Shown piece by piece: positions 25,659 through 58,953 of a DNA stretch of 64,000 bases (the first letter of the stretch is position 1; each line of letters opens with the position of its first letter). The position numbers were made by a program, and so were the translations under genes. The notes under the pieces are model-generated. The model worked only from the letters and a program-made list of their open reading frames with translations, was not told the DNA's origin and did no database searches. This DNA comes from Desulfomicrobium baculatum DSM 4028 (GTDB lineage Bacteria > Desulfobacterota > Desulfovibrionia > Desulfovibrionales > Desulfomicrobiaceae), in contig NC_013173.1 of NCBI RefSeq assembly GCF_000023225.1, forward strand, positions 2,172,501 through 2,236,500, written 5' to 3'.

Positions 25659-26045
25659 ATGAAAATTCTTCGCCTTCTCCTTGCTCTCATTTTTCTGGCC
25701 GCAGCGTCTCCAGCCCTGGCCGCGCCGTCCCCACTCATCTCCGGCGACCCGCAGGAAGTTCCCATCAAGGGCATGGTCACCATGGTCGACGTCGGCGCCA
25801 AGGCCTGCATACCCTGCAAGATGATGATTCCGGTCATCGAATCCTTGTCTGAAGAATACGAAGGCCGGGCCGCCATCGTCTTCATCGACGTCTGGAAAAA
25901 CCCGGACGAGACCCCGAAATTCGGTCTTCGCGCCATCCCGACCCAGATTTTCTACGACAAGGACGGCAATGAAGTCATGCGCCACGAGGGGTACTTTTCC
26001 AAAGAGGAGATCATCAAGGTGCTGACCAAGCTCGGGGTGGAATGA
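25659..26045 (+). CDS. Exported thioredoxin-like protein
   Basis: A 128-residue protein with a signal peptide (LLLALIFLAAASPALA, cleavage after ALA). The mature thioredoxin fold has the active site ACIPCKMMIPVIESL (CxxC) and the cis-Pro in LRAIPTQIFYDKDG. It is likely periplasmic and reduced by the adjacent CcdA-like protein, whose ATG overlaps its stop by 4 nt. Together they form a reductant relay from the cytoplasm to the periplasm. The substrate is unknown. Placement between ArsR and ACR3 suggests protection of, or electron supply to, periplasmic thiols under metalloid stress. Confidence 0.87.
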   Translation: MKILRLLLALIFLAAASPALAAPSPLISGDPQEVPIKGMVTMVDVGAKACIPCKMMIPVIESLSEEYEGRAAIVFIDVWKNPDETPKFGLRAIPTQIFYDKDGNEVMRHEGYFSKEEIIKVLTKLGVE

Positions 26046-26749
26046 TGGATCAATTCCTGATCCTTATCCATGAATGGATGGGGTCCGGCGTGGGTCTGGC
26101 GGCTCTGGGCTGTTTTTTGTGGGGCGTGGTCAGCGTGCTTTTCAGCCCCTGCCATCTGGCCTCCATCCCGCTCATCGTGGGCTACGTGGCCGGACAGGAC
26201 AGACTGGTCGAAGGACGTCAGGCCGCGCTCTACGCGGGCCTCTTCACCAGCGGGTTGTTTCTGACCATCGCCGCCATCGGCGTGATCTGCGCCCTGCTCG
26301 GCCGCATGCTCGGCGACGTGGGACCGTACTGGACCATCGCCGTGGGGCTGATCCTGCTGTGGGTGGCCATGGACATGCTCGGCGTGGCCACATGCTCCAT
26401 GGGCGGAAGTCTCATGGGCCGCTTTAAACTGCGCGGCATGGGCGGAGCCTTTGTGCTCGGTCTGGCCTACGGAGTCCTGTCCGGCTCCTGCACCTTCGGC
26501 TTCATCGCCCCCATCCTGGCCGTCATCACGGTGCAGGAAAAAATCGCGACCGGCATCCTGCTCATCATTCTCTTTGGCCTCGGGCACTGCATCCCCATCG
26601 TCATCGCCGGCAGTTCCACGGCCCTGGTGCGGCGCCTCCTAGACAATGCCTCCTGGCAGCGCGGCGGAACGGCCTTCCGTCGATTGGCCGGAATCCTCAT
26701 CGGCCTCATGGGCATCTATTTCATCGCCCGCCCCTTTCTGCCCGCCTGA
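26042..26749 (+). CDS. CcdA/DsbD-like thiol:disulfide transmembrane transporter
   Basis: A 235-residue, six-helix protein of the CcdA family. The two membrane cysteines that shuttle electrons are in VLFSPCHLASIPL (TM1) and LSGSCTFGFIAPI (TM4), in the symmetric positions known for CcdA. It is coupled by a 4-nt overlap to the exported thioredoxin. It should pass electrons from cytoplasmic thioredoxin (possibly the CPKC protein next door) to the periplasmic one. The ars context rather than a ccm locus is unusual. Confidence 0.87.
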   Translation: MMDQFLILIHEWMGSGVGLAALGCFLWGVVSVLFSPCHLASIPLIVGYVAGQDRLVEGRQAALYAGLFTSGLFLTIAAIGVICALLGRMLGDVGPYWTIAVGLILLWVAMDMLGVATCSMGGSLMGRFKLRGMGGAFVLGLAYGVLSGSCTFGFIAPILAVITVQEKIATGILLIILFGLGHCIPIVIAGSSTALVRRLLDNASWQRGGTAFRRLAGILIGLMGIYFIARPFLPA

Positions 26750-26796
26750 ATCATCTGCCCGCGAGTGCTCGGTTTCATAAACCTGAAGCCCTTGCA

Positions 26797-26825
26797 TTGA
26801 CATATCCACCTATGCGGATATATCA
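26797..26825 (+). promoter_or_regulatory. Promoter with inverted repeat upstream of ACR3
   Basis: TTGACA (26797-26802) and TATATC (26819-26824) at 16-bp spacing form a good sigma-70 promoter. The spacer and -10 contain ATATCC (26803-26808... arms) and GGATAT with an 8-bp centre, an imperfect palindrome consistent with an ArsR-type operator. It implies that acr3 has its own regulated promoter. Confidence 0.6.
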
Positions 26826-26862
26826 AGCAAACAAAGCCCACCCAAGAAGGAGCAAGCGCCAC

Positions 26863-27918
26863 ATGAAAAAAGAGAACCTCGCCGGAATCAGCTTTTTCGA
26901 AAAAAATCTTACGCTTTGGGTCGCCCTGTGCATGGTCGCGGGGGTGCTCATCGGCAAGTTCCTTCCCGCAGTCCCGGCTTTCTTAAGCAAGTTCGAATAC
27001 GCCAAGGTCTCCATTCCCATCGCGGTGCTGATCTGGTTCATGATCTATCCGATGATGATGAAGGTCGATTTCGCGAGCATCAAAAACGTGGGCAGGAATC
27101 CGGGCGGTCTGTACCTGACCTGGATCGTGAACTGGCTGATCAAGCCGTTCACCATGTTCGCCATCGCGGGGTTTTTCTTTTTCGTGGTCTTCGCGCCCTT
27201 CATCGAGCCCGAACTGGCCCGGGACTACCTGGCCGGGGCCATTCTGCTCGGGGCCGCGCCGTGTACGGCCATGGTTTTCGTCTGGAGCCACCTGACCCGG
27301 GGCAATCCGGCCTACACCGTGGTCCAGGTAGCCACCAACGACCTCATCATTCTGGTCGCCTTCACCCCCATCGTGGCATTCCTGCTTGGCATCAGCGGCG
27401 TGAGCATTCCCTGGAATACCCTATTTCTCTCCGTGATCCTATTTGTGGTCATCCCTCTTGCCGGGGGCGTGCTGACCCGCAAGCACGTCATCAAGAGCAA
27501 GGGTCTGGACTATTTCAACAACACCTTCATCCCCAAGTTCAACAACGCCACTATCGTCGGGCTGCTGCTGACCCTGGTGCTCATCTTTTCCTTCCAGGGG
27601 GAGGTCATTCTCGATAACCCGCTGCACATCCTGCTCATCGCCATCCCGCTCATAATCCAGACCGTGCTCATTTTTTTCATCGCCTACCTGGGGGCCAGAA
27701 AAATGAAGCTCTGCCACAGCATCGCGGCCCCGGCGGGCATGATCGGCGCGTCCAACTTCTTCGAGCTGGCCGTGGCCGTGGCCATCACCCTGTTCGGAGC
27801 CTCGTCCCCAGTGGTGCTCGCCACCATCGTCGGCGTGCTGGTGGAGGTTCCGGTCATGCTGGCCCTGGTCAAGTACGCCAACCGCACCGCAGGCTGGTTC
27901 CCGGATCTGCGGAGCTGA
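26863..27918 (+). CDS. acr3: ACR3-family arsenite efflux permease
   Basis: A 351-residue, ten-helix transporter that exports As(III). Family motifs: FFEKNLTLWVALCMVAGVLI, IPIAVLIWFMIYPMMMKVDF, and AILLGAAPCTAMVFVWSHLT, which contains the essential Cys of ACR3. ASNFFELAVAVAITLFGASS is the conserved last part. ATG 26863 follows AAGGAG at 26847-26852; upstream Met codons fall in the promoter. Downstream is ArsC, so the pair converts arsenate to arsenite and expels it. Confidence 0.93.
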   Translation: MKKENLAGISFFEKNLTLWVALCMVAGVLIGKFLPAVPAFLSKFEYAKVSIPIAVLIWFMIYPMMMKVDFASIKNVGRNPGGLYLTWIVNWLIKPFTMFAIAGFFFFVVFAPFIEPELARDYLAGAILLGAAPCTAMVFVWSHLTRGNPAYTVVQVATNDLIILVAFTPIVAFLLGISGVSIPWNTLFLSVILFVVIPLAGGVLTRKHVIKSKGLDYFNNTFIPKFNNATIVGLLLTLVLIFSFQGEVILDNPLHILLIAIPLIIQTVLIFFIAYLGARKMKLCHSIAAPAGMIGASNFFELAVAVAITLFGASSPVVLATIVGVLVEVPVMLALVKYANRTAGWFPDLRS

Positions 27919-28025
27919 CGCAGTGAATTTGCGTTCGGGGATAATTTTGGAATGACTGCCCGCAGTACCGGAATGGACTAAGGGCTTTGATCGTTAAAGC
28001 AGTATCGAAGCATCAGGAGATCATC

Positions 28026-28445
28026 ATGAAAATACTCTTTCTCTGCACAGGAAATTCCTGCCGCAGCCAGATGGCTGAAGGCTGGGCCAGGCATCTGAAA
28101 AAAGGCGAAATCGAGGCAGCGTCCGCCGGCATCGTCCGGCACGGCATGAATCCTTACGCGGTCAAGGTCATGCAGGAGGCAGGGGTGGACATGAGTGCCC
28201 ACGTCTCCAAGACTCTCGATGATCTGCCGAGCCTGGAATTTGACGCCGTGGTTACGCTGTGCGGACACGCCAGCGAAACCTGCCCGTTTTTTCCCGGGCC
28301 GGTTCGTAGAGTGCACCATGGCTTCGACGATCCGCCGAGCCTGTGCGCCGGGATGACGGATGAAGAAGAAATACTGGCCGTCTATCGCCGGGTCCGCGAT
28401 GAAATCCTCACATTCATTGAAGGCTTGCCCAAAAATCTGGAATAA
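28026..28445 (+). CDS. arsC: Arsenate reductase, thioredoxin-coupled (low-molecular-weight phosphatase type)
   Basis: A 139-residue enzyme that reduces As(V) to As(III). The P-loop LCTGNSCRSQMAEGWARH has the nucleophile Cys. The second and third redox cysteines are in TLCGHASETCPFFPG (C-x6-C), the triad of the Staphylococcus/Bacillus type that uses thioredoxin. ATG 28026 is preceded by CAGGAG. The length is typical. The CPKC thioredoxin-like proteins in the same island are possible partners. Confidence 0.93.
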   Translation: MKILFLCTGNSCRSQMAEGWARHLKKGEIEAASAGIVRHGMNPYAVKVMQEAGVDMSAHVSKTLDDLPSLEFDAVVTLCGHASETCPFFPGPVRRVHHGFDDPPSLCAGMTDEEEILAVYRRVRDEILTFIEGLPKNLE

Positions 28446-56471: not shown

Positions 56472-56948
56472 ATGAGCTCTCCTTTCAACCAGCTCTCACT
56501 GGAAGTAGTTATATGTCCATATTCTTCTCATCACCAATTCTAATTAAAATTAAATGCATTCACTGTAACAACTGCAATGGAAACTCTGCGCCAATATGTT
56601 GAAACTGGGCATTTGAGCGATAAAAAGCACACGGCCCAGCCTCCCGAGCTCTTGGCAACATCCATGCCAAAAGAAGTTAACAGCCATTTATGATCACAAC
56701 ATATCTATTATACGAGACTAAACGAAATGAGGGAGTGGCTTGAACAGAGGGATACATCAAATCAACTCGTCAGATCCAACATAACCGCCATATATGACGA
56801 GGCAGCTCGCGCATCAGCTTCATGGCTTGCAGCGCGGCCATATGGATTCCGGCATCTTCCAGCTTCATCCCCATCTTGACGAAGAGGTCTGGTCAATGAC
56901 ATATTAATATTTGTTTATATGCTTATTTACAATGTGCCCGGAGGGCTC
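56472..56948. other. AT-rich intergenic region with a palindrome
   Basis: About 475 bases of low-GC DNA. On the minus strand, about 56772-56880 would encode a short Met-rich helix (GMKLEDAGIHMAALQAMKLM) that may be a remnant of a longer gene; not secure. At its right end ATATTAATAT (56901-56910) is a perfect palindrome upstream of the ArsR-family gene. Confidence 0.45.
56901..56921. promoter_or_regulatory. Palindrome upstream of the selenoprotein cassette
   Basis: ATATTAATAT (56901-56910) is a perfect 10-bp palindrome. With the flanking C and the later ATATG it also forms the longer interrupted repeat CATAT...ATATG (56900-56921). It precedes the ArsR-family start by about 30-50 bp and is a candidate operator for that regulator. 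Confidence 0.5.
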
Positions 56949-57278
56949 ATGGACCACGAAGACGATCTCAAGGGGGTGGGACGATCCCTGGCCGACCTGG
57001 CCTTTCTGGCCCGGGCGCTGTCCGATGAGAACAGGCTGCGCATCCTGATGCATGTCGGGACCGGCAGACTGTCCGTCACGCAGATCGCCGAGGAGCTGGG
57101 GTTGTCCCAGCCGCTTGTTTCGCATCACTTGAAGGAGTTGAAACGCGCCCTGCTGGTCGACGTCGAACGCCGGGGGCCATTCATTCACTACGGAATCAGC
57201 CGACCGGAGGTACTTGACGTCCTTCGATCCATCGGCACCCTGGCCAGACAGCTCATTGCGGACAGGTCAAGCTTCTAA
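56949..57278 (+). CDS. ArsR-family regulator without cysteines
   Basis: About 109 residues. Winged helix: DENRLRILMHVGTGRLSVTQ, recognition helix LSQPLVSHHLKELKRALLVD, wing ERRGPFIHYGISRPEV. It contains no Cys at all, unlike the two ArsR proteins at 24.3-25.1 kb, so it does not sense soft metals through thiolates in the classical way. His/Asp or another ligand is possible. ATG 56949 follows GGAGG by about 4 nt; the frame is open to 56919. It heads the selenoprotein cassette, with the next start 18 bp downstream. Confidence 0.87.
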   Translation: MDHEDDLKGVGRSLADLAFLARALSDENRLRILMHVGTGRLSVTQIAEELGLSQPLVSHHLKELKRALLVDVERRGPFIHYGISRPEVLDVLRSIGTLARQLIADRSSF

Positions 57279-57296: not shown

Positions 57297-57746
57297 ATGT
57301 CTGAACTCGAAAAATTCCTCGACCGCATGGAGCCGGAACAGGCTGCCGTTTCCTTGGCCCTGGCGGCGCGTGGCCTTTTTGCGCTCTTGAACGAGGAGCA
57401 GCGACGTGAATTCATCGAGCGCATGCTCGGAGAACCCGGCGAGGACAAGGTTGTCGGGATGGTCCATCTCTGACTGGCCGAATGCATGGACGAAGGTGTC
57501 GATCCAACAAAGATGTGTCAGAGTTTAGTGGATAAAGTGGCCCAGTCGCGGCAGCTGATGGCGCTCGCGCACCCCGAGGTACTCGGTCTCTTCGAGGATT
57601 GGCTCGAAGAACTGGAAGAGGAGGTTGTCCGGCTCGCAACCAAGGAAGCTCTCAACCCGCACATCATTGCGGACAAAACAGGGCTCTCACGGGCCGGGGC
57701 GGAATTCGTCCTGGCCAAACTGCGTCGTGAACAAAGAATAGAATGA
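57297..57746 (+). CDS. Candidate selenoprotein (149 residues, Sec59), UGA read through
   Basis: The frame from ATG 57297 (GGAGA at 57287-57291) reaches UGA at 57471-57473 and then continues open in the same frame to a UGA stop at 57744-57746. The product is mostly helical: residues 1-58, then Sec59-Leu-Ala-Glu-Cys63, then Cys74 (TKMCQSL), an acidic helix (FEDWLEELEEEV), and at 119-146 a helix-turn-helix-like end (NPHIIADKTGLSRAGAEFVL). A SECIS-like hairpin lies at 57487-57506. The ATG after the UGA (57486) has no ribosome-binding site. Sec59 and Cys63 could form a selenenylsulfide or bind a soft metal. Family not recognised; UGA decoding is inferred. Confidence 0.72.
57471..57506 (+). promoter_or_regulatory. 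In-frame UGA with SECIS-like hairpin, first selenoprotein gene
   Basis: UGA 57471-57473. Downstream, UGGA (57487-57490) pairs with UCCA (57503-57506) and CGA (57491-57493) with UCG (57499-57501), leaving one bulged A (57502) and the apical loop AGGUG (57494-57498). The loop starts 20 nt after the UGA and has G as its second base. Both values lie within the ranges reported for bacterial SECIS elements. Confidence 0.65.
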
Positions 57747-57842
57747 GGCGCGCGTCATGAACGCCGGAGCCGCTTCCGCGCTGACCGCCGCCATGACGGT
57801 TTTGCCCAACGGTTGAAAAACCAAAAAAAACAGGAGACTCGC

Positions 57843-58124
57843 ATGATCAAGGTCCATTTGTTCCTGAACGAACCCAACGGCAACGCCTGAAAACATTTCC
57901 TGGAAATGCTGCCCAGGTTGGGCGCAAACTACGAAATCGAACTGGAAGTGACCTCCCAGCCCAGAGCCGCGTACCAGACCGACGAGTATTTCGAACTCGA
58001 ACTACCCCTGGCCCCGGCCGTGATGGTCGGTGACGAGGTGGCGACCGAAGGTTCGGACATTGCCGAGGACAAGCTTGAAGCCTGTATCCGTCGGCATCTC
58101 GGACTGTCCGATCCGACGTCCTGA
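57843..58124 (+). CDS. Candidate thioredoxin-fold selenoprotein (93 residues, Sec16)
   Basis: ATG 57843 has a strong ribosome-binding site (AGGAGA, about 7 nt upstream). The frame MIKVHLFLNEPNGNA is followed by UGA (57888-57890) and then KHFLEMLPRLGANYEIELEV and on to a UGA stop at 58122-58124. The build is strand 1, active-site loop with Sec at the position of the second thioredoxin Cys (GNA-Sec-KHF), helix, a strand around EIELEV, cis-Pro58 in LPLAPAVMVGDEV and a final helix with Cys81. There is no CxxC partner, so it is a one-chalcogen redox protein. The post-UGA Met at 57906 has no ribosome-binding site and would remove strand 1. A SECIS-like hairpin lies at 57907-57926. Confidence 0.82.
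57888..57926 (+). promoter_or_regulatory. In-frame UGA with SECIS-like hairpin, second selenoprotein gene
   Basis: UGA 57888-57890. UGC (57907-57909) pairs with GCA (57924-57926) and GCCC (57911-57914) with GGGC (57920-57923). A single bulged U (57910) lies between the two stem parts, and the apical loop is AGGUU (57915-57919), 24 nt after the UGA. A bulged U and a GGU loop are the known SelB-recognition features of E. coli fdhF. Confidence 0.8.
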
Positions 58125-58146: not shown

Positions 58147-58953
58147 ATGGATCTCCAAAACATAGTCAGGCTCGGAGCTTTCGTATTGACGGCCGTACTC
58201 ATGGCCGGCCTGGAAATCGCCCGGCCGCGCAGACGCCCCGATCCGGGCAGGATGGGCCGCTGGGTGGGCAACCTCGGCGTGGTGGCCGTGTCCACAGTGC
58301 TCGCGCGCCTCGTCTTTCCCGTTGTGCCCATGGCCCTGGCTGCCACGCTCCGTGGCCAGGGCCTGGGCATCTTCCCCGCCCTCGGCCTGCCCCTGGCCGT
58401 GGAAATCGTTCTTGGCATCCTCATCCTGGATCTGGCCATGTACGGCCAGCACCGCCTCTTCCATGCCTGGCGACCCCTGTGGCGGGTGCACCGCATGCAC
58501 CATGCGGACACCTTCTTCGACTTTTCCACCGGGGTTCGCTTCCATCCCGTGGAAATCCTCATTTCCATGGCCTTCAAGCTCGCCCTGGTGGCCCTGCTGG
58601 CCCCGCCGCCCCTGGCCGTTTTGGCCTTCGAGATCATCCTGAACAGCGCGGCGATGTTCAACCACTCCAACCTCTTCCTGCCCCTCCCCCTGGACCGAGC
58701 CCTGCGCCTGGCGCTGGTCACGCCGGACATGCACCGCATCCACCACTCCACCGACGGCAAGGAAATGAACAGAAACTTCGGCTTCAGCTTCCCCTGGTGG
58801 GACCGGCTCTTCTCGACCTACCAGGACCAGCCCGTCGGCGGCCACGAAACCATGCCGCTGGGACTGAACATCTTCCGTGACGCCAGATACCGCTCCCTGT
58901 TTCAGATGCTGGCCATGCCCTTCACGAATCCCGGCTCAGTACGCAAGAAATAA
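58147..58953 (+). CDS. Membrane fatty acid hydroxylase/sterol desaturase-family protein
   Basis: A 268-residue diiron-type integral membrane oxygenase homolog. Three or four helices and the histidine clusters HRLFH, HRMHHADTFFDFSTGVRFHP, FNHSN and HRIHHSTDGKEMNRNFGF, the pattern of the FA_hydroxylase family. The start ATG 58147 lies 22 bp after the selenoprotein stop, so it is probably cotranscribed. An O2-using enzyme is odd in a strict anaerobe; it may act under microaerobic stress or on lipids. Substrate unknown. Confidence 0.88.
   Translation: MDLQNIVRLGAFVLTAVLMAGLEIARPRRRPDPGRMGRWVGNLGVVAVSTVLARLVFPVVPMALAATLRGQGLGIFPALGLPLAVEIVLGILILDLAMYGQHRLFHAWRPLWRVHRMHHADTFFDFSTGVRFHPVEILISMAFKLALVALLAPPPLAVLAFEIILNSAAMFNHSNLFLPLPLDRALRLALVTPDMHRIHHSTDGKEMNRNFGFSFPWWDRLFSTYQDQPVGGHETMPLGLNIFRDARYRSLFQMLAMPFTNPGSVRKK

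Follow-up and report, generated by a model that had tools for sequence, protein, structure and literature searches.

TsoC, a Selenoprotein of Desulfomicrobium baculatum DSM 4028, and the Deletion of tsoB from Its Operon

Identity of the Frame and Its Setting

The frame at 57843–58124 of the window, i.e. the 64,000 nt stretch of Desulfomicrobium baculatum DSM 4028 DNA analyzed here, very probably encodes the protein TsoC, with an in-frame UGA (57888) decoded as selenocysteine (Sec). What is new at this locus is the deletion of a second gene, tsoB, from the operon, which has left a scar; the rest is a known family, ordinary in kind. The frame scores 138.3 bits against NCBIfam NF045708 (NEPxGxxU motif selenoprotein TsoC, cut-off 45), and its version of the motif is NEPNGNAU. 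A sequence-only reading of the DNA had already proposed Sec here and had described the selenoprotein as hidden. The Sec call is correct but is not a discovery because the TsoC family, described in 2025, has this curated NCBIfam model; TsoA, TsoB, TsoC, and the Tso operon are listed in a 2026 review citing Haft and Tolstoy 2025 (PMC13188914). The features of the locus are as follows.

56919–57278, + strand: tsoR, ArsR/SmtB-type regulator (NCBIfam NF045707, 130.9 bits, cut-off 115)
57297–57746, + strand: tsoA, LULAxC-motif selenoprotein with UGA (Sec) at 57471–57473 (NCBIfam NF045695, 212.2 bits, cut-off 170)
57757–57831, + strand: scar of the deleted tsoB, its first ~19 codons joined to its 3′ end (blastn to the nearest relative, G011; breakpoint within 57787–57816)
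57832–57836, + strand: AGGAG ribosome-binding site of tsoC (sequence)
57843–58124, + strand: tsoC, 93-residue thioredoxin-fold selenoprotein (NF045708 and AlphaFold2 model)
57888–57890, + strand: UGA codon 16 of tsoC, Sec (TGA in all copies compared; Sec machinery in the genome)
57908–57925, + strand: bacterial SECIS hairpin with bulged U 57910 and loop AGGUU 57915–57919 (stem pairing, bulged U, AGG conservation)
58147–58953, + strand: fatty acid hydroxylase-family gene (PF04116, 102.9 bits)

The tsoC frame begins at ATG 57843, contains the in-frame UGA, and is then open to a UGA stop at 58122–58124; these elements and the ribosome-binding site all lie where the sequence-only reading had placed them. 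A standard open reading frame call yields 57906–58124 only, in agreement with its expectation that gene callers would report a truncated product. A second in-frame UGA, at 57471 in the gene just upstream (tsoA), had been missed.

The D. baculatum protein shares with TsoC as modeled in NF045708 its sequence, motif, Sec position, and the neighbors TsoR and TsoA. It differs in lacking the basic C-terminal tail (consensus KKGxxxRL), in having Ala immediately before Sec and Asn before that (GNAU, compared with mostly GKPU in the family), and in having no adjoining TsoB. With respect to the three-selenoprotein Tso operon, the order tsoR-tsoA-tsoC followed by the fatty acid hydroxylase gene is as in several relatives, whereas the deletion of tsoB leaves two selenoproteins instead of three. 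The hydroxylase-family gene adjoins tsoC in several genera, and tsoR is also found upstream of tsoA in relatives. The internal name of the NF045707 model is Dbac_1936_reg, which presumably refers to the very locus studied here.

The Selenocysteine Codon in Relatives

TsoC copies were compared from 80 species in GTDB genomes. Codon 16 is TGA in all 103 copies, and in 395 genomes drawn from the phylum a TGA is present inside every TsoC match. The residues ahead of the UGA are conserved in frame, with Asn9, Pro11, and Gly13 invariant. No Cys form of TsoC was found among the 103 copies or among the matches in the 395 phylum genomes. Cys-containing homologs aligned at position 16 had been proposed as the test of the Sec assignment; because there is no such form among these sequences, all of which carry UGA, the Sec/Cys pairing could not be made. 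The TsoC family looks, from these alignments, to be obligately Sec. No viral relatives were found. Tandem tsoC copies occur at several loci (L070, L072, L089, L099, and others), where one copy is often tail-less and has NDPCGxTU in place of NEPNGKPU.

The genome encodes tRNA-Sec (86 bits, over cut-off) and SelA, SelB, and SelD (each over cut-off), so that selA, selB, selC, and selD, the presence of which the sequence-only reading had wished to see confirmed, are all accounted for. The Sec system of D. baculatum has been studied in a sister strain (PMC3035215). Elsewhere in the genome, selD itself (L148, C1:3136326–3137243, − strand) has its own in-frame TGA, as does a stand-alone rhodanese-like gene (L013, C1:2685509–2685943, − strand; CRGFRU), the product of which is related to the rhodanese part of TsoB and is likely another selenoprotein.

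The SECIS Hairpin

The hairpin downstream of the UGA was found as it had been described, with its bulged U, AGGUU loop, and 24 nt from the UGA to the loop. It has a 4 bp stem with 2 bp below the bulge, a 5 nt loop, and a folding energy of −8.2 kcal/mol. The bacterial SECIS (bSECIS) model specifies a loop of 3–9 nt with G in the first two loop positions, an upper stem of 4–16 bp, a distance of 16–37 nt from the UGA, and a minimum free energy of at most −7.5 (PMC13188914); the tsoC hairpin lies within these bounds. Folding energy alone is not significant relative to shuffled sequences: that of a 48 nt piece is not better than those of shuffles (z −0.82, with 39 of 200 shuffles as good). We accordingly set aside minimum free energy as an argument for the hairpin, and, given the unremarkable fold energy, the Sec claim rests on the relatives.

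Among 99 distinct tsoC sequences the upper stem is paired in 96%–99% and the bulged U is retained in 98, while the pair at the stem base varies (GC, GU, UA, CG, and AU). Below the bulge, the window has two further pairs, which relatives do not conserve. The codons that form the hairpin show a preference not seen elsewhere: Arg25 is encoded by AGG in 88/88 copies, compared with 61 of the 446 Arg codons in the remainder of the same genes, and Pro24 by CCC in 96/98; at Pro11, Pro40, Pro55, and Pro58, by contrast, all four Pro codons occur. This pattern indicates that the tsoC SECIS hairpin is under selection at the RNA level. The invariance of the TGA, the codon constraint in the hairpin, and the Sec machinery together bear out the Sec reading of UGA 57888.

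Comparable observations were made for tsoA. Its Sec codon is TGA in 61/61 copies and its hairpin covaries: 34 distinct sequences pair GGGC with GACCC, and 18 pair GGAC with GATCC. The C-terminal part of TsoA shows a weak similarity to winged helix-turn-helix domains: of 49 TsoA family members, 30 match HTH_24 (best E 2e-4), and Foldseek matches to winged helix-turn-helix structures have a probability of about 0.9 but an E value of about 0.8.

Fold and Active-Site Position

An AlphaFold2 model of TsoC (58 sequences) has a pLDDT of 92.5 and a pTM of 0.81, and comprises a strand (residues 2–10), a helix (14–29), a strand (32–40), short helices, two further strands (59–62 and 65–69), and a C-terminal helix (75–86). 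The top Foldseek matches are thioredoxins (probability 1.00, E 9e-4). Structural alignment with VIA-align gives Z up to 9.5 for thioredoxins (rmsd 2.8 over 81 residues), tied with Z 8.7–8.9 for selenoprotein W-related (Rdx) proteins. The model, which is confident, supports a thioredoxin fold, in line with the thioredoxin-like order of strands noted from the sequence. At the sequence level the resemblance is slight: Pfam Thioredoxin_3 scores 12.1 bits against TsoC, below its gathering cut-off of 24.8, Pfam Rdx does not match, and a sequence search of solved structures returned no meaningful match.

The model places Sec16 at the beginning of helix 1 and Pro58 immediately ahead of strand 3. The proposal that Sec falls at the Cys position of the thioredoxin loop holds with respect to the active-site loop; the motif, however, is GxxU, and the helix boundaries in the model suggest that Sec16 occupies the second Cys position of CxxC, with Gly13 at the first. 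TsoC therefore shares with thioredoxin the fold, the position of the redox loop, and the conserved Pro58 before the third strand, but has GxxU in place of CxxC. Selenoprotein W-related proteins have a CxxU motif, with Sec in the second position. They are close to TsoC in size and fold (2p0g, Z 8.8, rmsd 1.9 over 72 residues), except that the first Cys is replaced by Gly in TsoC.

Deletion of tsoB

In relatives, tsoB, which contains two UGAs, lies between tsoA and tsoC. In D. baculatum the tsoA-tsoC gap is only 96 nt, and no TsoB scores over cut-off in the whole genome, the best match being a DsbD-like protein (149 bits). The gap retains both ends of the missing gene. Counted from the end of tsoA, the 5′ arm of the scar is identical to the first tsoB codons of G011 at 109/134 positions, and the 3′ arm to its last tsoB codons at 37/46 positions (blastn, E 4e-6). 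The arms overlap at 57787–57816, which corresponds to a near-repeat in G011 (CTTTTGTCCATCG / CTTTTGTCCAACG). The simplest reading, judged from G011, is that tsoB was lost by deletion between short repeats.

Two other candidates were considered and rejected. A mini-ORF at 57757–57816 could be taken for a third selenoprotein gene, but aligns to the first tsoB codons of G011 and is part of the scar. The frame at 26087–26833 is not a split tsoB; it encodes a CcdA-like membrane protein beside thioredoxin-like and ArsC-like genes. Thioredoxin-like, CcdA-like, ACR3/bile-acid-type transporter-like, and ArsC-like genes stand in a row at 25660–28445, which, read by eye, is probably arsenic-related.

TsoB is absent from other genomes too, mostly drafts. 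On the TsoA tree the TsoB-less state needs three separate changes, and three or more distinct lineages appear to lack TsoB. The basic TsoC tail is present in 70/70 loci with TsoB and absent from five of the nine TsoB-less loci, which include those of D. baculatum DSM 4028 and G038 (Fisher p 6e-6, uncorrected for descent). Some TsoB-less genomes retain the tail, and a strict rule linking TsoB and tail was rejected. Ala before Sec is observed in four tail-less relatives and in D. baculatum; all other copies tallied have a different residue there. In a group of four species without TsoB, tsoR-tsoA-tsoC is retained with the same Ala and no tail. Because tail loss and Ala before Sec coincide in two TsoB-less lineages, the comparison suggests that TsoB and TsoC function together; this is a lead that draws on two independent cases.

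Alternative Readings

Were UGA 57888 a real stop, a 72-residue protein starting at ATG 57906, or nothing, would be made, and the standard open reading frame call returns just this product. We consider this highly improbable. The residues ahead of the UGA would then have no cause to be conserved in frame, nor the UGA to be kept in every copy, nor synonymous codons to be constrained within the hairpin; moreover, the truncated product would begin partway into helix 1 of the modeled fold and have no strand 1. Sec decoding of UGA 57888 is thus strongly preferred.

The absence of tsoB might in principle be a sequencing or assembly error, given that a single assembly of the species was examined. There is very little to recommend this reading: the genome was published as complete, with one replicon (PMC3035215), and the joint holds diverged copies of both tsoB ends, contrary to the collapse of an exact repeat. 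If tsoB was indeed deleted, tsoA-tsoC could be a decaying remnant, with the two selenoproteins no longer mattering in this lineage. The deletion itself, the missing tail of TsoC, and the substitutions K14N and P15A beside Sec would fit such decay, and the changes at residues 14–15 together with the missing tail could reflect a weakening function after tsoB loss. Decay is nonetheless unlikely overall. Both frames and both hairpins are intact, and dN/dS relative to G011 is about 0.18 for tsoC and about 0.32 for tsoA. Since the four TsoB-less species share the Ala and the absence of the tail, this shortened form of TsoC persists in them along with tsoR and tsoA. These observations suggest that TsoC is under purifying selection and that TsoA and TsoC are, on the whole, maintained.

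Proposed Role and Implications

The computational evidence supports a mechanism in which SelB and tRNA-Sec decode UGA 57888 as Sec, directed by the hairpin at 57908–57925, to give a 93-residue thioredoxin-fold TsoC whose active-site loop contains a single Sec (GxxU). Because the first CxxC position holds no Cys, TsoC would most likely act as a one-selenol redox relay: it would form a mixed bond with its partner, which would then resolve it. We hold this role tentatively. Probable partners are TsoA (LULAxC) and, for most species, also TsoB, a rhodanese/DsbD-like membrane protein whose exchange with TsoC would be of reducing power or persulphide sulphur. Here, where TsoB is missing, TsoC would use TsoA or other reductants, and TsoA and TsoC are presumably kept to work with another reductant.

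A broader proposal, which we regard as possible though somewhat less likely than not, is that a reduced, TsoB-less Tso system has arisen at least twice: with the loss of TsoB, TsoC would shed its tail and gain Ala before Sec, the tail and this residue would serve contact with TsoB, and TsoA-TsoC would work with a soluble partner.

As the tsoC Sec call shows, a sequence-only reading is able to find recoded UGAs. The loss of tsoB points to a testable contact between TsoB and TsoC, involving the tail and residue 15, and its natural occurrence in a cultivable strain provides a ready test bed for which parts of the Tso system persist alone.
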